This document shows, piece by piece, positions 7,343 through 27,957 of a DNA stretch of 34,599 nucleotides (positions are counted from its first letter, which is position 1; each line of letters starts with the position of its first letter). A program made the position numbers and the translations under genes. The notes under the pieces are model-generated. The model had not been told where the DNA came from. It ran no database searches and saw only the letters and a list, made by a program, of their open reading frames with translations. The stretch is from Candidatus Thalassarchaeum betae (GTDB taxonomy: Archaea; Thermoplasmatota; Poseidoniia; Poseidoniales; Thalassarchaeaceae), in NCBI GenBank assembly GCA_022447095.1, contig JAKUUP010000017.1, forward strand, positions 1 through 34,599. The letters are read 5' to 3'.

Positions 7343-8812
7343 ATGGCACAAGACGACATCCCTGAGGCTCTGACCTTCGATGACGTCCTCCTGCTCCCGG
7401 CAGAATCGGCGGTCCTTCCAGCCGGGGTTGACACCCAGACTCGTCTGACCAACTCGATACCACTCAATATCCCACTTGTATCAGCAGCTATGGACACCGT
7501 CACCGAGAGCAACATGGCCATCGCCATGGCACAGGCCGGCGGCATCGGCGTAATCCACCGGAACATGAGTGTGGAGGAGCAAGCCGCCGAGGTCTATCGC
7601 GTCAAGCGCTTCGAGTCCGGTCTCGTCCTCGACCCAGTCACCATCTCTCCAGACAACACCATCGGCGAATTGAGAGCAGTCAAGTCCCAGCACGGCTTCT
7701 CCGGCTTCCCCGTAATCGACGATTCAGACGCTCTGGTCGGCATCATCACAAATCGCGACATCAGATTCGTCTCAGATGACTCCGTCAAAGTCTCAACCAT
7801 GATGACCACAGATGTCGTCACAGTCCCCGAGCACGCTGACCCGGAGATCGCCAAGAAGCTCCTGCACCAGCACCGTATCGAGAAACTCATCGTCGTGGAC
7901 GATGAGGGTCGTTGCGCCGGGATGATGACGGTGCGCGACATCCAGCGTAGCCGAGACAACCCGAAGTCCTGCAAGGACTCACAGGGCCGTCTGCGAGTCG
8001 CAGCGGCCACCGGGACCGGCGACAAGGGAGTCGCTCGCGCACTGACGCTCTATGAGGCCGGTGCCGACGCTGTTGTCGTCGACACCGCACACGGCCATTC
8101 GCACGGTGTTATCGACGCAGTCAGGGCGATTCGCGAACAGGCACCCGATGGCGCTCAGATTATCGCCGGAAACATCGCCACCGGCGCGGCCGCCGAGATG
8201 CTCATCGAGGCCGGCGCTGATGCGCTGAAGGTCGGTATAGGGCCGGGCTCGATATGCACGACCAGAATTGTCTCCGGCGTCGGCGTGCCACAGCTAACCG
8301 CGGTCCAAAGCGTCGTCGATGTCTGTAACAAGCACGATATCCCGGTCATCGCCGATGGCGGGATCAAGTACAGCGGCGACATCGCCAAGGCAATCGCCGC
8401 CGGTGCCGATTCGGTGATGGTTGGCTCGGTGCTGGCGGGCACCGACGAGTCACCTGGAGAGATAATCCTCTACCAAGGCCGCTCGTACAAGGTCTATCGG
8501 GGAATGGGTTCCGTGGGCGCGATGAGCCATGGTGCAGGCGCGCACGAGCGGTACTTCCAGTCTGAGCAGGGTGACACCAGCAAGTACGTACCCGAGGGAA
8601 TCGAGGGAAGGGTCCCTGCTAGAGGGCCGGTGGACAACGCCCTCTACCAGATGATAGGTGGACTGCGCTCGTCGATGGGCTACACCGGCAACGGCACCAT
8701 CGCTGAGATGAAGGTCAACTGTGACTTTGTCCGAATCACCAATGCGGGTCTTTCTGAGAGTCACGTCCACGACATCGAGATCACCCGCGAGGCGCCAAAC
8801 TACCGTAGGTGA
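7343..8812 (+). CDS. guaB: Inosine-5'-monophosphate dehydrogenase
   Basis: GuaB oxidises IMP to XMP with NAD+, the first committed step to guanine nucleotides. The 489-residue length is typical. The N-terminal barrel strand has [10 protein letters not shown] (11-20). Two CBS domains are inserted at about residues 93-205 ([19 protein letters not shown] and [20 protein letters not shown]). The catalytic loop GPGSICTTR has the nucleophile Cys305. The later [11 protein letters not shown] and the [24 protein letters not shown] region are the usual IMP-binding and C-terminal parts. It is complete and probably active. It leads a run with msrA (four bases after its stop) and alkB. Confidence 0.97.
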
Positions 8813-8816
8813 GGCG

Positions 8817-9338
8817 ATGGAGAGCATCGTTCTCGGCGGGGGCTGCTTCTGGTGCGTAGAGGGGGCGCTGAAAGGCCTCCGCGGAGTCAGCGAAGTGATG
8901 TCTGGATATTCTGGCGGGCATGTCGACAACCCGACCTACGAGCAGGTATGTGGCAAGCGCACCGGGCACGCCGAGGTCGTGCGTGTCAGATTCGACCCTG
9001 AAGTCATCGGACGACGCACGCTCCTCGAGGTCTTCTTCACCTGTCACGACCCCACTCAACTGAACAGACAGGGCAACGACATCGGCCCGCAGTACCGCAG
9101 TGCGGTTTTCTACGCCGATGAGGGCCAGAGAGCCGATACTAAGGCAGTGATAGACAGTCTGGCAGACTCATTTCACGACCCCATCGTCACTGAGGTGACG
9201 CCGCTAGGGGAGTTCTGGATGGCAGAGGCCTACCACCACGACTACTTCGTGAACAATCCCGGGAATTCCTACTGCAGAATCGTCGTCGCTCCAAAAATCG
9301 CTAAGACGAGAGCCGAACACGCCTCATTGTATGAGTGA
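8817..9338 (+). CDS. msrA: Peptide methionine sulfoxide reductase MsrA
   Basis: MsrA reduces methionine-S-sulfoxide in proteins, repairing oxidative damage. The start at 8817, four bases after the guaB stop, puts the family motif GGGCFWC at residues 7-13 with Cys10 as catalytic nucleophile. MSGYSGGHVDNPTYEQVC, TGHAEVVRVRFDP and QYRSAVFY are characteristic. The length of 173 residues is normal for the single-domain enzyme, and no fused MsrB is present. The frame extends upstream into guaB to about 8721, but that part does not resemble MsrA. The stop lies inside the first codons of alkB (eight-base overlap), so translation is probably coupled. Confidence 0.95.
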   Translation: MESIVLGGGCFWCVEGALKGLRGVSEVMSGYSGGHVDNPTYEQVCGKRTGHAEVVRVRFDPEVIGRRTLLEVFFTCHDPTQLNRQGNDIGPQYRSAVFYADEGQRADTKAVIDSLADSFHDPIVTEVTPLGEFWMAEAYHHDYFVNNPGNSYCRIVVAPKIAKTRAEHASLYE

Positions 9339-10353
9339 GGCCGCCGAACTCGCCCCCGAGCCATGGCCGGTTCATCTCCTAGGACTGATTAACCCCCTGA
9401 TCGTCATCATCGGCAACATGCTTGGCGGAGCCTACACGGCGATGGGAGTCGTGTTCATCTGGGGATTGGGGCCCATTCTGGACATCGTCATGGGCCAGAC
9501 GAAGGAAGCCCCCCCTCCAAGAGATTCAGGTCTGCCCTTCGAGACCCTTCTCTGGGTCCATAGTACGCTACATTTCGTAGTACTGGCCTCTTTCTTCCGC
9601 TTCGCCTACCTTGAGGGAACTGTCTCCATCTGGCTGGCCACGGCAGCCCTGTCCACAGGGCTCTCCGCAGCGTCCTCGGCCATCATCACCGCTCACGAGC
9701 TCGGACACAAGAAGCCCAAGAGCCCGGGTTGGAGGATGGCAAGGCTACTGCTGTTCAGCGTCAACTACTCGCACTTCACCACGGAGCACAACCACAACCA
9801 CCACAAGTGGGTAGCGACGAACCGTGACCCCGCCAGTGCTACTGAGGAACAGGGGATCTGGATTTTCTGGGCCAAGACCATCCCCGCCCAGTTCCTCTCC
9901 TCAGTAAGAGTCCACAACGGCAAGGGCCGCACCGGCTTGAGGAACCCCTCCTACCAAGGGCTGATACTACAGTTGGTAGCGCTGGCCACACTTTTCATCT
10001 TGCCCGGCGGAGCTCCGATGGCGATTGGATGGCTCTTACTCTCCCTTATCGCCATCCTGACCCTCGAATATGTGAATTACATTCGGCACTGGGGACTGAG
10101 GAGGGGCGAGAACGAGCGCCAGACTGCGATGCAATCGTGGAACACCGAAGCACGCTGGTCGCGCTGGTCGCTGCTTGAGCTGACCCGCCACTCGGACCAC
10201 CATATGCGCGCCAGCGTACCCTTCTGGCAACTTAGACCGCATGAGGACGCACCGGAGTTACCTGCCGGATACTACGCCTGCTGGTGGCCCTGCCTGATAC
10301 CTCCTGTTTGGAAGCGTTGGGCGGGCAAGCGCATACCCCGTAACACCACTTGA
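9331..10353 (+). CDS. alkB: AlkB-type integral-membrane non-haem diiron monooxygenase (alkane 1-monooxygenase family)
   Basis: The full nine-histidine set of the AlkB family is visible: HELGH (H122, H126), EHNHNHH (H153, H157, H158), NYIRHWG (H253) and RHSDHH (H287, H290, H291). The C-terminal ELPAGYYACWWPCLIPPVWKRW matches the usual AlkB ending. Hydrophobic segments lie at about 14-34, 36-54, 72-93, 97-125, 205-226 and 229-248. AlkB hydroxylates the terminal carbon of medium-chain alkanes and needs rubredoxin and rubredoxin reductase, neither of which is in the window. The third box has Arg-His-Trp-Gly where classical AlkB has Glu-His-Tyr-Gly, so the substrate could differ, for example another hydrocarbon or a lipid chain. 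The start overlaps msrA by eight bases. Confidence 0.88.
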   Translation: MSEAAELAPEPWPVHLLGLINPLIVIIGNMLGGAYTAMGVVFIWGLGPILDIVMGQTKEAPPPRDSGLPFETLLWVHSTLHFVVLASFFRFAYLEGTVSIWLATAALSTGLSAASSAIITAHELGHKKPKSPGWRMARLLLFSVNYSHFTTEHNHNHHKWVATNRDPASATEEQGIWIFWAKTIPAQFLSSVRVHNGKGRTGLRNPSYQGLILQLVALATLFILPGGAPMAIGWLLLSLIAILTLEYVNYIRHWGLRRGENERQTAMQSWNTEARWSRWSLLELTRHSDHHMRASVPFWQLRPHEDAPELPAGYYACWWPCLIPPVWKRWAGKRIPRNTT

Positions 10354-10405: not shown

Positions 10406-10840
10406 ATGGTTCCGGACAGGGCTGGAGACGACGACGCTCCCTCGGACAAGGCATGGACCATCCACGCCGCCATCGTCGGTGTCAACATGGGTAACATGCT
10501 ATTCCGCGGTCTTGAACTGAACCCCGAAAATCCTGACATGGGGGCAATCATAGGATTGGCCGTTCTAGCAGCCGCGCTCCCATTCCAAGCCGTCTTCTTC
10601 CTCATCAACTCTTACATCCGGGAATTCGAGAACGCCAATGACCCCGAGTACGTTATGCTGGTCAGGCTGTCAATCATCTGTCAGATGGTTTCCTATCTTT
10701 CGCTGCTGGGAATCGCTTGGCTGTTCTACAACACCCATCAGTACATCGGCATCGCTTTCGCGTCGGGAGCAATTATCGCCATCGTGTTGGTCAGATCGGC
10801 GATGAACCAAGCAGCCACCCTTCGAGAGTCGGCGATTTGA
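10406..10840 (+). CDS. Small multi-pass membrane protein of unknown function
   Basis: I do not recognise this 144-residue protein. After a polar, acidic N-terminus (1-15) it has hydrophobic segments at about 18-34, 45-68, 84-106 and 111-130, so probably four membrane passes, and a short polar tail. There are no catalytic motifs I can name. The ATG at 10406 is preceded by a TATA-like element, suggesting its own promoter rather than read-through from alkB 52 bases upstream. It is followed by another membrane protein gene after 42 bases. Confidence 0.65.
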   Translation: MVPDRAGDDDAPSDKAWTIHAAIVGVNMGNMLFRGLELNPENPDMGAIIGLAVLAAALPFQAVFFLINSYIREFENANDPEYVMLVRLSIICQMVSYLSLLGIAWLFYNTHQYIGIAFASGAIIAIVLVRSAMNQAATLRESAI

Positions 10841-10882
10841 TTCCGTAGTGAGGTTGATGGCAGTCAGTTGCCACTGCAGTCC

Positions 10883-11692
10883 ATGGCAGAGGCCATCGCC
10901 TTCCCCAGCCTACCGCCAGCCTCACCTTGGGATGCGTACCTGCTGATGCTCGCGATCCCGCTCATCATGAGGGTGGTCTTTGTCGCACCTCCACTCATCG
11001 ATCTGGTCAACACCTATGCCCCGCCAGGTGAGAGGACCAAGCACGTCAAGTGGTTCTTCGCAAGGCTGAAGCAACTGCCAATCGAGGGATTCTGGCTAAT
11101 CGTCACCAACGAAATCCTCGCGTTCATGCTCCCTGTCATAGTCGCCGTCGGCGCTCGGATATGGTTCGGCCCCATCGGATGGCTGAGTTGGGAGGATACG
11201 CCACAAATCGGCGTTATTCTGCTGCTAGCCGCCGGCGCAGCTTGGCTGATTGCCGACTTCAACAAGGTCACACGCTCGCGTCGGGATATTCAGATGCTCG
11301 CGAAGTACAACCTCACCACAGCTAAGATGGTCGTGCAGACAGCCGTGGTCGGGCGCGAGATACTCAAAGGAGTCAAGGAGTTCGAGGTACCGCGCCCGTG
11401 GAGGACCATCATCGAAGTCGAGCACACCATTGATGGCGAGTTCACTCCGGCCCCCAAGAAGAACCCGCTCACAGACATGATTTCCAACCTGCTCGACATG
11501 GGCGCTGATGCAGTGGAGTCCGTATTGGAGCAGGCTAAGGGCCCCGCCTCGGAGGCAATGGACAAGCTGGATCAGGACATCCAGGCCAGAATCACAGCCC
11601 GCGCCCGCGCATCCACCCGCTCGCTCGTACGCGACATCGCTTTCTCTATCGCGCCTCTGCTGGTTCTAGCCGGACTGCAGAGGCTGGTCTAG
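10883..11692 (+). CDS. Membrane protein of unknown function with amphipathic C-terminal region
   Basis: The family is not recognised. Counting from the ATG at 10883 (269 aa), hydrophobic segments lie at about 17-38, 69-90 and 103-125. A cytoplasmic-looking central part (about 128-175) is basic then mixed. The region of about 180-248 is helical in character with many Ala, Asp, Lys and Arg (SNLLDMGADAVESVLEQAKG onward). A final hydrophobic stretch ends the protein (about 249-265). A TTG five codons earlier (10868) is possible but less likely. The 3' end overlaps the convergent MFS transporter gene by 27 bases. No function is proposed. Confidence 0.65.
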   Translation: MAEAIAFPSLPPASPWDAYLLMLAIPLIMRVVFVAPPLIDLVNTYAPPGERTKHVKWFFARLKQLPIEGFWLIVTNEILAFMLPVIVAVGARIWFGPIGWLSWEDTPQIGVILLLAAGAAWLIADFNKVTRSRRDIQMLAKYNLTTAKMVVQTAVVGREILKGVKEFEVPRPWRTIIEVEHTIDGEFTPAPKKNPLTDMISNLLDMGADAVESVLEQAKGPASEAMDKLDQDIQARITARARASTRSLVRDIAFSIAPLLVLAGLQRLV

Positions 11693-13008: not shown

Positions 13009-13545
13009 GTGGTCGAGGAGAGGCTGGTCTGGATTGATCTCGAGATGACCGGGCTGGACCCGGACGAGAACACGATCATCGAGATTGCCACCATAGTCAC
13101 CGAGGGCGACCTCACTATGGTCGCCGAGGGACCGGCTATCGCCATATCACAGCCTGAGCCGGAGCTGGCGAAAATGGACGAGTGGAATCTCACCCATCAC
13201 ACCGAGAACGGACTTCTCGACAGAGTCAGGAACGAGGGGGTGCCGATGGCCGAGGCCGAGGCCATGACTCTGGAGTTCTTGCAGGAACACTGCATAGAGG
13301 GAGTTCATCCACTCTGTGGCAACACCATAGGTCAGGACAGGCGCTTCCTACGCAGATATATGCCAGCATTGCACGAATTCTTCCATTATCGCAGCGTCGA
13401 TGTGACCTCGATTAAGCAATTAGTCGACAGATGGTACCCGGATCTCCCCCGCGCGACCAAGCCATCCGGTCACCGCGCGCTTGACGACATCCGCGGTAGC
13501 ATAGCCGAGCTCGAGCACTACCGAGAACACGTCTTTAGAGACTAA
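13009..13545 (+). CDS. orn: Oligoribonuclease (DEDDh 3'-5' exonuclease)
   Basis: Orn degrades short RNA oligonucleotides (nanoRNA) to mononucleotides, the last step of RNA turnover. All DEDDh residues are visible: D10 and E12 in WIDLEMTGL, D110 in CGNTIGQDRRFL, and H155 with D160 in HRALDDIRGSI. The length of 178 residues matches the bacterial and mitochondrial enzyme. ELAKMDEWNLTHHTENGL is also typical of Orn. The start is the GTG at 13009; no ATG precedes the first catalytic motif. Orn is common in Proteobacteria and eukaryotes but unusual in archaea, so gene transfer from bacteria is likely. The gene stands alone, divergent from the MFS gene. Confidence 0.93.
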   Translation: MVEERLVWIDLEMTGLDPDENTIIEIATIVTEGDLTMVAEGPAIAISQPEPELAKMDEWNLTHHTENGLLDRVRNEGVPMAEAEAMTLEFLQEHCIEGVHPLCGNTIGQDRRFLRRYMPALHEFFHYRSVDVTSIKQLVDRWYPDLPRATKPSGHRALDDIRGSIAELEHYREHVFRD

Positions 13546-22723: not shown

Positions 22724-22959
22724 ATCTCAGCGCCGATCAGAGTCCGAGTCTCGACGATCCCTGAAATTCCACGCACTCCCTGTACGATGCACTTGGTCAA
22801 TTCAGCCTCGTCCTCAGCCTCGACCTTTACGAACAGGTCGTGCGGACCGAAAACGATCCACTGCCCGACGACACCGTCAATCCTACTGACCGCTTCGCGA
22901 ACATCGACCTCCGCCCCGGTCTCAGTGGTGATGAGGATGAATCCCACAGCCATCATCAC
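22720..22959 (-). CDS. Stand-alone Lrp/AsnC ligand-binding (RAM) domain protein
   Basis: The 79-residue protein corresponds to the C-terminal effector-binding (RAM) domain of Lrp/AsnC regulators without a DNA-binding helix-turn-helix. It shows the beta-alpha-beta-beta-alpha-beta pattern: VGFILITTETGAEVDVREAVSRI, VVGQWIVFGPHDLFVKVEAED, ELTKCIVQGVRGISGIVETRTLI. In archaea such stand-alone RAM proteins bind amino acids and can act as partners of full-length Lrp proteins. The gene overlaps its upstream paralogue by the four bases ATGA, so translation is coupled. The stop shares TTAG with the STAND gene. The first Met cannot be fixed among three consecutive ATGs. Confidence 0.88.
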   Translation of the reverse strand: MMMAVGFILITTETGAEVDVREAVSRIDGVVGQWIVFGPHDLFVKVEAEDEAELTKCIVQGVRGISGIVETRTLIGAEI

Positions 22960-23189
22960 ACCTCCACTGCAATCAGAGTCTCAGTCTTGATGACCCCTGA
23001 GATCGAGCGCATGTTCCCAATGAGTGTTCGAGCCATCTCCTTCTCGTCATCGAAGTCGATACGCGCCACGAGGTCGTACTCTCCGTATGCTACATGCGTC
23101 TCACTGACGCTGTCGATGTCGAGCAGAGAGAGATATACGTCGCGCTCGCAGCCTGGTTCAGCCTTGATCAGAACGAAGGCAGTACTCAT
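22956..23189 (-). CDS. Stand-alone Lrp/AsnC ligand-binding (RAM) domain protein, first of a tandem pair
   Basis: A 77-residue paralogue of the next gene with the same RAM fold pattern: TAFVLIKAEPGCERDVYLSLLDIDSV, THVAYGEYDLVARIDFDDEKE, ARTLIGNMRSISGVIKTETLI. The G-x-Y-D-L segment and the I-S-G-V/I-x-T-T/R-T-L ending are standard for AsnC_trans_reg domains. No helix-turn-helix is encoded before it. The ATG at 23189 has GAGGT about nine bases upstream. A CATAAA element (minus strand, near 23232-23226) could be its TATA box, giving a short leader. The two proteins could form hetero-oligomers. Confidence 0.88.
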   Translation of the reverse strand: MSTAFVLIKAEPGCERDVYLSLLDIDSVSETHVAYGEYDLVARIDFDDEKEMARTLIGNMRSISGVIKTETLIAVEV

Positions 23190-23223
23190 TTCCAGACCTC
23201 TAGACGAGCATCGCGCTTGGTTG

Positions 23224-23234
23224 CTGTTTATGAC
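23224..23234. promoter_or_regulatory. TATA-like element between the RAM pair and the surface-protein gene
   Basis: CTGTTTATGAC reads as a TATA-like element in both directions (CATAAA on the minus strand). On the minus strand it predicts a start near 23202, about 13 bases before the RAM gene ATG. On the plus strand it would leave a leader of about 55 bases before 23308. Confidence 0.35.
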
Positions 23235-23307
23235 CTCTGCTGTTGGACGGATTCCGCGCGCTCATGTGTGCGCAAGGGATAACAGGCAGAGGGCGAGCGG
23301 AGAAGCC

Positions 23308-26300
23308 ATGCAAGTTCATGTTTCGGCGGCCCGCAGGCGTGCTGTTGCGTTGATACTCTTGCTGCTTGTTTCTGCAGCCCCACTCGTTCCCGTCGCAACG
23401 GGCGCTGGGACGCGTACGACGACGGTGTGGTCCGGGACAGTGGTCCTCCAGGATGGCTACACGGTCGAGAGTGGGGACATCCTCGTGGTGCAATCGGGCA
23501 CCACTATCCAACTCGGTGATGACGAGACCATCACTGTCGACGGCAGACTCACCGTACAAGGTACGACTACGGCCCCTGTGCTGCTGGAATCGATATTAGG
23601 CAACCACGATGGCATTGTTTTCAACTCGACCAGCTTCGGCCTCGGCTCCAAACTGGAGAATCTCACGATCACCGATGCCGAGTACGGCGTGACCATCTAC
23701 GGCAGCGATCCGATTCTCAACGATCTCACGGTCATAAACGCAGATAGGGTGGCAGTCGATCTGTTCAGCAGCGCATCACCGAGGATCAACGACCTCGTGA
23801 TCGACGGCGGTGGGCAGGACGTGCACGCGTTCTCGACCTCATGGAGGTACGGCATCGGACTGTCGATTGGTGCTTACTCAGCACCGATAGTCAACGGCGT
23901 GACAATAGACGGACTGATCTCACGCGGCCTCAACTACTGGGGTAACTCCGGCGGTATGATATCGAACCTGCAGATTTCCAACATCAGCGGTGCTACTCTC
24001 GCCATCGCAGCCGGCATCTGGGTCGAGGACTCGCGACCTCTCATCACCGACTCCGAGGTCACCCGCTGCGACAACGGCATCTTCGTCAGGCACATTACAT
24101 CGGGCTGGACTACCCGTCCAACCTTCGTTCGTGCGACAGTCGAAGACAGTCAGTATCGTGGCATCATGGTCGAGCAGTACAATCACAGCTTGTATTCAAA
24201 CGTGCCTTACAACGCCGTTTTCGAAGACCTCGAACTGCGGGGGACCGGCGGCCCGGACGCCAAGACGCCCGGGCTTGGATACGCCGCATTCGAGGTCAAC
24301 ACCAGTGGCGTACAAATCGATGAGGCGCTTATCGAGGACAATCCCGTGGTCGGCTTCAAGGCATACATGATCGGCCCTTCCACTATCCTCAATGACATCT
24401 CCTTGCTGCGAAACGGCAGACCCAGCACCGCAGCGCCGCTCAACGACAGGGCTGGCATGTTCATGCGCAGCGCCAACTGGGCGCCTACGATCAACGACCT
24501 TGAGGTGCGCAACTCCAGTGGCCCTGGAGTACTTCTGTGGAAGGGCGGCGCGCAGGGCTCGAACTGGGTGATTGCCGACAACGGGGCCACCGGTGTCGAC
24601 CTACGTGAGTTCCACCCCGATTTCTCCGGCATACTCAGCATGGACAACGACGGGCACGGCGTCTCGGTGCGAGACTCGAGCAATGTCGAACTGTCATACG
24701 TCACCACCTACCGCAATGGCATCGGCGCCGCCTTCCCAGAACTGGGAGCCGGTTTTTACTTCGACGAGTCGAACGACGTCATGAGCGGTGGCAAGAATGC
24801 GAGTTGCTTCGAATGCACCTCAATCGAGGACCAGCACGGAATAGTGGTTCGCGACAGCATCGATCTGCAACTGATTGCGAATGAGATCAGGGACCCAGCC
24901 AACGCTCCCGCGCTCGACGTGGACAACACCGGGATGGACCACGACGGCAACATCCTCATCGACGACATGAAGATCGAGCTTAATTCGACGGATCACGCGG
25001 TCAAGTTGGACGAAGTGGATGGCACGGTGTACGGACTTGACTTGAACGGCGACAACGGCGGCCTTCTCTGGGATGCCAACGGCGAGGAGCCGTCATACCT
25101 CGTGAATAGCATCATCTGGGGCAACCAGAACTCATGCTTCGATATGGTCGACCAGACCGGACTCCTCATCGACAACGTCGGTCTTGCCTGCGATACGGCC
25201 GCTTCCGCCAGTTTTTCTTCGAGTTTCGCCAACTTCACCGACTCCTGGATAATCACCGGGTACGCAGACAGCTTTGAGATGCTGGGAGACAGTCACCTGC
25301 GCTGGATCTCCTCCGCTCCGCTAGACACACCGACCTATACAGGACAGGACAACATCCTCGACGTGATGTGGTTCGTCGAGGTACACGCAGTCAACCACCA
25401 CCTCCTACACATCCCCTACGCCGACATCAACCTAACTTTCGACCTTTACGAAGCGGATTACAACGACACCCTACCTTACTCCGGACAGGACTTGTTCGGT
25501 CCCTTCATCGGCGAGCGTTGGACACCTCTGCAGGGTTGGTCGGACGTTAACACCGTCCACACAGGTTGCGATTACGTCGGCGTTCATAACGACTCAAACG
25601 CCCACGCTCTGGATGCCGACATATCTGTCACTTGCTTGCTCGATCTTCCTAACCAGCCGCCGTTCATCCTGTGGGCCTCGCCTGAGGATGAGGGCGTCTA
25701 CGCCAGTGGAGGAGAGGTGCTGTTCGACGCCAGCGAGTCATGGGACCTCGATTATGACGAGCTTAGTTACACCTGGACCAGCAGCATCGACGGCAACCTG
25801 CTCACCGCCTGTGGTGCGTCTGGCTCGGGCAATGGCTCCTATTTACTCGCAAACGCCGCTGACCAGATTACTTGCCTGTCTGACGGGACGCACCAGATTA
25901 CACTCGAGGTGTGCGACACTGACAGCCACTGTGTGTGGGAGACCAGAGAGATCGAGTTGGTGAATCTGCCCCCCGTGCTCTCAGTGGGAACGACCCCGGC
26001 CATCTCTGCTTGGGGCACGCTGTACATCGGAATTACGGCAAACGTTACCATTCACCTCGGAGGCACCTATGACCCGGAGGACGACGAGCTGAACTGCTGG
26101 GTCGAGACCTCCTACGGGTCAGGCTCCGGCCAGCCCCCTGCGGGAGACCCGGAGTGTCCCGGCACCATCATCCACACCTTCCCGGGCGCTCCGAACCAGT
26201 TCTCGGCCACAGTCTATGCCTCTGATGGAATCAACGTACCTGTTTCATGGACGTTCAACGTCGAACTGTACAACGAGATCCCGCTCGCTGTCATGGAGGT

Positions 26301-27957
26301 CTCCCGCACCGGCGAGACCTCCTCAGCCACCGTACACCTCGACGGCACCAACACCTTCGATCCCGAGGGCGATGAGGTGAAGTTCGAGTTCTGGAGCGAC
26401 CGCGATGGACTACTGTCATCCGGTATCACCACCGACTCTGCAGTCGAGTGGATAGGCACATTGTCCAAGGGCGATCACGTCATCACGATGTATGCCAGCG
26501 ACAACCGCCCGAACCACGCAGGTATGTGGAATTCGATTTCGGTAGAAATGAGCGTTGCCAACTCCCCGCCGGTGGCGATGATTGCCAGCCCCTCAGACGG
26601 CATACTGACCGACTCGGGCGAGCTGCTGGTATTCGACGGGACCGGCTCTGGCGATTGGGATGCAGCCTGCTCTGACCTGCCTTACAACGGCAGCGGACTC
26701 GTGTGCAACCCGCTGACAGACAAGAGCACAGACCTAGTCAGCGTACTCTGGGAGAGCGACCTGATGAGCGAGCCAATGGGAAGCGGATGGGTACTCGAGA
26801 CGAGACTACCCGAGGGCGTGCACCAAGTCACACTCACCGTTGAGGACGGCTCGGGTGACTCCGACGTCGCTGAGATCATGGTCAGAGTCAACGAGGCGGC
26901 ACCGGTACTGATTCTCGACTCGCCTATGCCCGACATCGAGGTCTACTCCAATCTCCCAGTGCTGTTCGACTTCCGGCGCTCGTTCGACCCGGACGGCGAC
27001 GACTTCACCGTTAGCGTGTACTCCGACTTGCTCGGTACGCCAATCCTTGAGGACAAGACGACCGAGTACTGGTACAACGACTACCTGCCAGCGGGAGTTC
27101 ACACACTGCGTTTCGAACTCACCGACACCAACGGGATGCAGCGGACCCACTCGCAGAGCCTCACGGTGCTCGAAACCGGTCCTATGGCAGTCATCACGGG
27201 GCTATCTGAGGGCCAGTACATCCCACCGGGCGAGCCAGTTGTGCTCAACGCCTCCGGTTCCTACGACTATGACGATGACATCGTACTCTACCAATGGAGC
27301 CTGCGCGACGGCACGCTACTGAGCGACAAGATAGTCTACTCGGCCAACTTCTCGCCCGGACCAATTCAGGTTAATCTGCTGGTCAAGGACTCCCGAGGAG
27401 CAGCATCCTCAATGTCGATCAATCTCACCATCGGCTCCAGCTCACCGCAACTATTTGAGTTCGAGGTCTCTCCCTCAAGCATCGATCTCGAGGAGCCAAC
27501 GACGGTCTTCCTAACCGTCAGGCTGGTTGACCTCGACGGCACTACCAACATAGTGGGGGGCGAGCTTCGCGCTGGAGGCGTATCGCAGTCACTGGAGTTC
27601 CGCGACGACGGCATGGAGGGCGATTTGTTCGCAGGTGACGATATCTGGTCGTACAGGTCCGTCTGGACGCTCACCGGCAGTAGCGCTAGGGTCGAGGTGT
27701 GGGCTATGGACGGCGACATGGTTAGCCCCGGGTTGATTGAGATCATACCAATAGAGTCGCCTGAGGACACTGGCCTGTTCGACTGGCTTCTGGGCAGCGG
27801 TCTACCATTCCTCATCGTAGCACTCACGATCGCGATTATGGCCGGAATCGCCTACACGAGTAACCGTAGGAGGCAGATATCGAAAGATCTTGAGATGATA
27901 GAGTCCTGGTCGGGTTTCGACCCTCGCGAGCTCGATGACGAGTTCGATCAGTCCTGA
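23308..27957 (+). CDS. Giant surface protein: signal peptide, beta-helix region, PKD-like repeats, C-terminal anchor
   Basis: The predicted start at 23308 (GGAG nine bases before) gives 1549 residues. The frame is open upstream to 22840, but that part is antisense to the RAM genes and lacks a signal sequence. A signal peptide covers about 1-32 (RRR followed by LILLLLVSAAPLVPVATGA). Residues about 40-600 have repeated strands such as GVTIYGSDPILNDLTVINA and ASPRINDLVIDGGG, typical of a right-handed parallel beta-helix. From about 782, six PKD/Ig-like units begin near 782, 886, 988, 1085, 1195 and 1289, with the N-x-P-P-x opening and F-D-P-D/E-G-D motifs. Another beta domain follows near 1378. 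A membrane helix (about 1493-1515) and short tail end it. It is probably a cell-wall, adhesion or glycan-binding protein. Confidence 0.88.
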   Translation: MQVHVSAARRRAVALILLLLVSAAPLVPVATGAGTRTTTVWSGTVVLQDGYTVESGDILVVQSGTTIQLGDDETITVDGRLTVQGTTTAPVLLESILGNHDGIVFNSTSFGLGSKLENLTITDAEYGVTIYGSDPILNDLTVINADRVAVDLFSSASPRINDLVIDGGGQDVHAFSTSWRYGIGLSIGAYSAPIVNGVTIDGLISRGLNYWGNSGGMISNLQISNISGATLAIAAGIWVEDSRPLITDSEVTRCDNGIFVRHITSGWTTRPTFVRATVEDSQYRGIMVEQYNHSLYSNVPYNAVFEDLELRGTGGPDAKTPGLGYAAFEVNTSGVQIDEALIEDNPVVGFKAYMIGPSTILNDISLLRNGRPSTAAPLNDRAGMFMRSANWAPTINDLEVRNSSGPGVLLWKGGAQGSNWVIADNGATGVDLREFHPDFSGILSMDNDGHGVSVRDSSNVELSYVTTYRNGIGAAFPELGAGFYFDESNDVMSGGKNASCFECTSIEDQHGIVVRDSIDLQLIANEIRDPANAPALDVDNTGMDHDGNILIDDMKIELNSTDHAVKLDEVDGTVYGLDLNGDNGGLLWDANGEEPSYLVNSIIWGNQNSCFDMVDQTGLLIDNVGLACDTAASASFSSSFANFTDSWIITGYADSFEMLGDSHLRWISSAPLDTPTYTGQDNILDVMWFVEVHAVNHHLLHIPYADINLTFDLYEADYNDTLPYSGQDLFGPFIGERWTPLQGWSDVNTVHTGCDYVGVHNDSNAHALDADISVTCLLDLPNQPPFILWASPEDEGVYASGGEVLFDASESWDLDYDELSYTWTSSIDGNLLTACGASGSGNGSYLLANAADQITCLSDGTHQITLEVCDTDSHCVWETREIELVNLPPVLSVGTTPAISAWGTLYIGITANVTIHLGGTYDPEDDELNCWVETSYGSGSGQPPAGDPECPGTIIHTFPGAPNQFSATVYASDGINVPVSWTFNVELYNEIPLAVMEVSRTGETSSATVHLDGTNTFDPEGDEVKFEFWSDRDGLLSSGITTDSAVEWIGTLSKGDHVITMYASDNRPNHAGMWNSISVEMSVANSPPVAMIASPSDGILTDSGELLVFDGTGSGDWDAACSDLPYNGSGLVCNPLTDKSTDLVSVLWESDLMSEPMGSGWVLETRLPEGVHQVTLTVEDGSGDSDVAEIMVRVNEAAPVLILDSPMPDIEVYSNLPVLFDFRRSFDPDGDDFTVSVYSDLLGTPILEDKTTEYWYNDYLPAGVHTLRFELTDTNGMQRTHSQSLTVLETGPMAVITGLSEGQYIPPGEPVVLNASGSYDYDDDIVLYQWSLRDGTLLSDKIVYSANFSPGPIQVNLLVKDSRGAASSMSINLTIGSSSPQLFEFEVSPSSIDLEEPTTVFLTVRLVDLDGTTNIVGGELRAGGVSQSLEFRDDGMEGDLFAGDDIWSYRSVWTLTGSSARVEVWAMDGDMVSPGLIEIIPIESPEDTGLFDWLLGSGLPFLIVALTIAIMAGIAYTSNRRRQISKDLEMIESWSGFDPRELDDEFDQS

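Follow-up and report, generated by a model that had tools for sequence, protein, structure and literature searches.

We tentatively propose that archaea of the class Poseidoniia possess a separate family of AlkB-like proteins, in which the glutamate of the AlkB active site is replaced by arginine or glutamine and rubredoxin is replaced by a [2Fe-2S] ferredoxin. The chemistry or the substrate of this family may be unlike that of classical AlkB, and the gene may later have been passed to marine Gammaproteobacteria. Judged from its sequence, the protein described here is AlkB-like, yet it fails three features that help to define AlkB: the Glu ligand, the rubredoxin partner and placement inside the characterised clade. 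Because the active site differs and no rubredoxin donor was found in the class, naming this enzyme an alkane hydroxylase is premature.

The AlkB-like gene and its neighbors

The window, that is, the whole stretch of 34,599 nucleotides that was analyzed, derives from a Marine Group II (MGII) archaeon of the Poseidoniales, subgroup MGIIb, whose genome (1.35 Mb) is 98% complete. The gene run is as follows.

7343..8812, + strand: guaB (IMP dehydrogenase), which opens the run
8817..9338, + strand: msrA, peptide-methionine (S)-S-oxide reductase; the ORF as listed begins at 8721 and the start near 8817 is inferred from the domain
9331..10353, + strand: intact ORF with ATG start for a 340-aa protein, putatively a membrane diiron monooxygenase of AlkB-like type; its motif is NYIRHWG, with Arg252 in place of the AlkB Glu
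10406..10840, + strand: tm144, hydrophobic 144-aa protein of unknown function; downstream neighbor kept across many MGIIb genera
10868..11692, + strand: tm274, hydrophobic 274-aa protein of unknown function; conserved neighbor downstream

The MsrA domain begins near residue 33 of the listed msrA ORF. Therefore, the listed start is probably too early, and the real start would be the ATG near 8817, which lies 4 bp past guaB. Because msrA ends at 9338, it overlaps the AlkB-like gene by 8 bp. The initial annotation, which described a complete AlkB-type gene in an archaeal run with guaB and msrA and an eight-base overlap with the latter, was accurate on all of these points. Its remark that AlkB is classically bacterial is kept, but the presence of alkB (alkane 1-monooxygenase) in MGII had already been published (PMC6461757; PMC8166890; PMC10703444).

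Neither tm144 nor tm274 had a match in Pfam or NCBIfam, and the pair stays together across MGIIb genera. Elsewhere in the window, an oligoribonuclease gene (orn, a gene type known best from bacteria) lies at 13009-13545, a position conserved in MGIIb. The product of 22840-27957 (1705 aa) combines right-handed beta-helix and PKD domains; this large protein is probably secreted or exposed on the cell surface.

Sequence and predicted fold

Pfam assigns the AlkB-like protein to the FA_desaturase superfamily (PF00487), of which it is the sole gene in the genome, and an NCBIfam search gave no family for it. When the PDB was searched with phmmer, just two chains were matched: both are alkane 1-monooxygenase (E 4e-36 and 4e-34), and desaturases were absent among these sequence matches. 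An AF2 model was built on 23 family members and had a pLDDT of 80.5, with a weaker C-terminal part. In a Foldseek search of the PDB with this model, the sole significant matches were the AlkB structures 8sbb and 8f6t (TM 0.63, E ~3e-8), and desaturases were again absent among the significant fold matches. A fatty acid desaturase was therefore rejected, since it is matched at the level of the Pfam superfamily only and both PDB searches give AlkB. In sequence comparison, canonical AlkB proteins score 105-145 bits, and the identity with FtAlkB is about 25%. Thus, sequence, predicted fold and the tree described below agree, and support the initial assignment of an AlkB-type protein rather than a generic desaturase. 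The gene is real and intact and looks functional.

Active site and docking residues

The nine ligand histidines of FtAlkB, as listed in PMC10113152, correspond one to one in the alignment with H122, H126, H153, H157, H158, H253, H287, H290 and H291. These histidines lie in four motifs and are invariant in 103 aligned homologues, except for one ambiguous X. The C-terminal LPxGY motif is also shared with FtAlkB. Both features had been claimed in the initial annotation and are present. The annotation further placed an Arg for Glu substitution in the third His box: the substitution stands (Arg252), but its location does not, because Arg252 lies within the NYxEHYG motif, which holds a single ligand histidine.

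Arg252 aligns with the iron-binding Glu271 of FtAlkB. That residue is an Fe2 ligand at a distance of 3.2 A from the substrate, and it has been proposed to donate a proton to the second oxygen (PMC10113152), and a second structure paper also describes a conserved Glu near the iron (PMC10110569). At position 252, 65 of the 103 sequences have Arg (the MGIIb type and its bacterial relatives), 25 have Gln (mainly MGIIa and XylM) and 13 have Glu (canonical AlkB, the Polaromonas fusion and a second MGII type). Glu was found at the NYxEHYG motif in 10/10 canonical AlkB proteins and in 0/85 sequences of the MGII family or its recipients. Because XylM has Gln at this position, hydroxylation may survive the loss of Glu. 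In addition, the tunnel leucines of AlkB are conserved in the window protein, and four of the six rubredoxin-docking arginines of FtAlkB are gone from it (R148W, R169H, R215T and R284, which is deleted).

Nearly all MGIIb-type members carry a positive charge where AlkB has an Fe2 ligand, which might mean that Arg has removed the hydroxylase function, leaving a non-oxygenase or degenerate diiron protein. We consider this extremely improbable, since the nine histidines are all retained and purifying selection is strong.

Distribution of the gene and exchange at the msrA-tm144 interval

Relatives of the AlkB-like protein were found at 65 loci elsewhere, mostly in MGII, and the closest named loci belong to Marine Group II or Ca. 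Thalassarchaeaceae. A match was present in 43/60 relatives and in 100/390 genomes of the phylum; among the matches listed, all are in the class Poseidoniia. They fall in two families of the order (f1 and f2) and in three genomes of family f3, where two full copies show 64% identity. Among the 100, a few weaker matches represent a distinct AlkB type that bears Glu (L099, 194-1312, - strand; L104; L106), which occurs in other MGIIb genera and groups with the ferredoxin-fused AlkB of Polaromonas. In comparisons with unsaturated synonymous sites, dN/dS against orthologues was ~0.05-0.1. Because relatives occupy 65 loci and dN/dS is this low, the gene is not a chance ORF; it is old and under purifying selection.

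The order guaB-msrA-AlkB-tm144-tm274-MFS-orn recurs across MGIIb genera, and the msrA overlap is conserved in several of them. Other MGIIb copies and the MGIIa copies are located elsewhere. Even inside one genus the gene is patchy. In three genomes of the same genus (G009, G011 and G012), a gene for a 479-aa FAD_binding_4/ALO oxidase lies between msrA and tm144, at the following positions.

L175, 3525-4964 (G011): FAD_binding_4/ALO oxidase gene
L176, 3159-4598 (G012): FAD_binding_4/ALO oxidase gene
L177, 3445-4884 (G009): FAD_binding_4/ALO oxidase gene

In G011, sequence for the final 21 residues of the AlkB-like protein is still present beside the oxidase gene. In four further genomes (G022, G032, G017 and G027), tm144 directly follows msrA, so that guaB, msrA and tm144 persist where the AlkB-like gene is absent. 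The msrA-tm144 interval is thus evidently an exchange hotspot. Because the oxidase can occupy the slot and the gene can be missing while msrA is kept, the AlkB-like gene is an exchangeable passenger, and the overlap is no evidence of joint function. The coupling with msrA suggested by the initial annotation was therefore rejected: the link is only positional.

Phylogeny and transfer to bacteria

In an IQ-TREE tree of 73 rows, rooted with XylM, the MGII family and L061 form their own clade (100/99) outside characterized AlkB. The family adjoins canonical AlkB (97/88) on a long stem (1.69 changes per column). The phylogeny that the initial annotation had called for thus places the protein near AlkB but not within it. 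A single clade of the family and XylM was not rejected by the AU test (p 0.36), nor were other deep groupings. Because these alternatives are left unrejected, the sister relationship to AlkB is provisional.

This AU result bears on the idea that the protein resembles XylM in function and hydroxylates aromatic methyl groups or other small molecules; a ferredoxin-type donor would be plausible for such an enzyme, and the Gln shared by XylM and the MGIIa proteins would agree with it. However, XylM scores 68 bits, below canonical AlkB, and none of the genes for a XylA-like reductase or an aromatic pathway was seen beside the AlkB-like gene. Such an activity is very unlikely.

Copies from gammaproteobacterial bins show 72-76% identity (L010, L013, L014, L015, L016 and L018). 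Five of them nest within the MGIIb clade of the window, L014 is placed beside L006, and a copy from a Rhodoferax bin (L058) lies near another MGIIb group. A constraint that grouped the archaeal Arg-type sequences to the exclusion of the bacteria was rejected (p 0.013); this grouping had been chosen post hoc from the tree. Bacterial-type genes flank the AlkB-like copy on both sides in several of the gammaproteobacterial-bin contigs, and the arrangement around these copies is common to several MAGs. Misbinned archaeal contigs were rejected as an explanation for L013, L014, L016 and L018, which also carry nitrile hydratase, Opp/Nik-type transporter and 2-hydroxyacid dehydrogenase genes. Because the gammaproteobacterial copies nest inside MGIIb, the simplest reading is that the gene moved from archaea to bacteria, as the tree suggests.

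L061 (5965-8275), from a bin labeled Gammaproteobacterium, has a Gln-type AlkB-like gene; after it, the first part of an MGIIb tm144 runs into a frame that resembles an aminotransferase. The contig is apparently rearranged or chimeric, and little weight was given to it.

Electron donor

Absence of a rubredoxin-type donor from related genomes was one of two outcomes that the initial annotation had named as refuting it, and this is the outcome obtained. No rubredoxin (PF00301) was found in the window's own genome, in the 60 MGII relatives or, above cut-off, in the 293 Poseidoniia genomes, where one sub-threshold match contained stop codons. Positive controls were detected, and the same search found rubredoxin in 6/8 genomes of bacterial-labeled carriers. 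Because the count for the class is 0/293, reading the protein as part of a classical AlkB-AlkG-AlkT alkane hydroxylase is weakened.

The protein could still be an ordinary alkane 1-monooxygenase that supports growth on biogenic n-alkanes, tolerates the Glu-to-Arg change and uses an unrecognized rubredoxin-like donor. AlkB proteins are its nearest solved relatives, the tunnel leucines are kept, and the KO annotation was published as such (PMC6461757). The absence of rubredoxin above cut-off, the missing ligand Glu and most of the docking arginines, and the separate long-stemmed clade make this unlikely.

We favor a ferredoxin instead. The window's own genome encodes a plant-type [2Fe-2S] ferredoxin (99 aa) and an FAD_binding_1/NAD_binding_1 reductase, and a Fer2 ferredoxin is present in 52/60 relatives. 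The gene after XylM encodes a 2Fe-2S protein, and the AlkB of Polaromonas carries Fer2-FAD-NAD domains as a fusion. The ferredoxin gene is not adjacent to the AlkB-like gene, and a motif scan beside homologues in other MGII gave no credible ferredoxin or rubredoxin gene. Ferredoxin also occurs in genomes that lack the AlkB-like gene, so its presence fails to separate carriers from non-carriers. By analogy with the XylM and Polaromonas systems, we infer the pairing of ferredoxin and AlkB-like enzyme in MGII.

Proposed function

In three genomes of two genera (G016, G036 and G033), an aldehyde dehydrogenase gene, adjoined by one for enoyl-CoA hydratase, is located one to two genes upstream of the AlkB-like gene and shares its strand; the window itself lacks this neighborhood. 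Several MGIIa genomes have a fused 3-hydroxyacyl-CoA dehydrogenase/enoyl-CoA hydratase-like gene, assigned by eye, about three genes away. Fatty-acid degradation genes are reported for all MGII genera (PMC6461757). These hints fit a hydroxylation that feeds beta-oxidation and name no substrate.

We therefore lean towards an O2-dependent AlkB-like hydroxylase of a hydrophobic chain. The membrane diiron enzyme would insert OH into a chain drawn from the membrane. A flavin reductase would reduce the small [2Fe-2S] ferredoxin of plant type, which would in turn pass electrons to the enzyme, in the way that XylM and the Polaromonas fusion are supplied by ferredoxin-type domains. The resulting alcohol would pass through aldehyde dehydrogenase into the fatty-acid degradation that MGII encode. 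Its probable role is therefore the scavenging of alkyl or lipid chains from phytoplankton-derived matter, with n-alkanes as one candidate substrate. Against this reading, the positive charge of Arg at the usual Glu site could alter or abolish hydroxylation.

The chain might also be the host's own: the enzyme would then hydroxylate an isoprenoid or other membrane lipid inside the cell membrane. MGII have archaeal ether-lipid genes (PMC6461757), and the gene is old and broad across MGIIa and MGIIb. However, it is patchy within one genus and occurs in bacteria that presumably have no archaeal lipids. Because of this patchiness and the bacterial carriers, an accessory catabolic trait fits better than a core lipid step, and lipid tailoring is rather improbable.

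Comparison with known systems

MGII are among the most abundant archaea of the surface ocean. They are counted as potential alkane degraders on the basis of the annotation of this gene. If the AlkB Glu and rubredoxin are indeed both missing, inferences on marine hydrocarbon turnover that rest on MGII should be tested directly. At the residue that is proposed to transfer protons in AlkB, the family supplies natural variants, and it is also a candidate example of gene flow out of archaea into bacteria.

The MGII alkane 1-monooxygenase annotations of Rinke et al. 2019 (PMC6461757), matched by annotation, very probably concern the same proteins. In the sections consulted, they are reported as presence or absence, and the active-site change, the lack of a donor, the replacement of the gene and its transfer are not mentioned; an earlier description of the active-site variant may exist in subscription journals.

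FtAlkB (8f6t / 8sbb) resembles the AlkB-like protein in its membrane diiron fold, predicted here, and in the nine His ligands, tunnel leucines and C-terminal LPxGY motif. It differs in having Glu271, where the family has Arg or Gln, and a loop of five residues, missing in the AlkB-like protein, that precedes the ER of GRYER; its docking arginines are mostly lost in the AlkB-like protein, whose host class gave no rubredoxin above cut-off. XylM (pWW0) is alike in Pfam superfamily, histidine pattern and a motif without Glu, and it uses a 2Fe-2S donor; it is more distant in sequence than AlkB, and its XylA-type 2Fe-2S reductase is not beside the archaeal gene. The Polaromonas AlkB keeps Glu, and its relatives occur in MGII L099 and L104 and not in the window genome; it shows that an AlkB-type enzyme can be joined to Fer2-FAD-NAD modules, which presumably supply its electrons.
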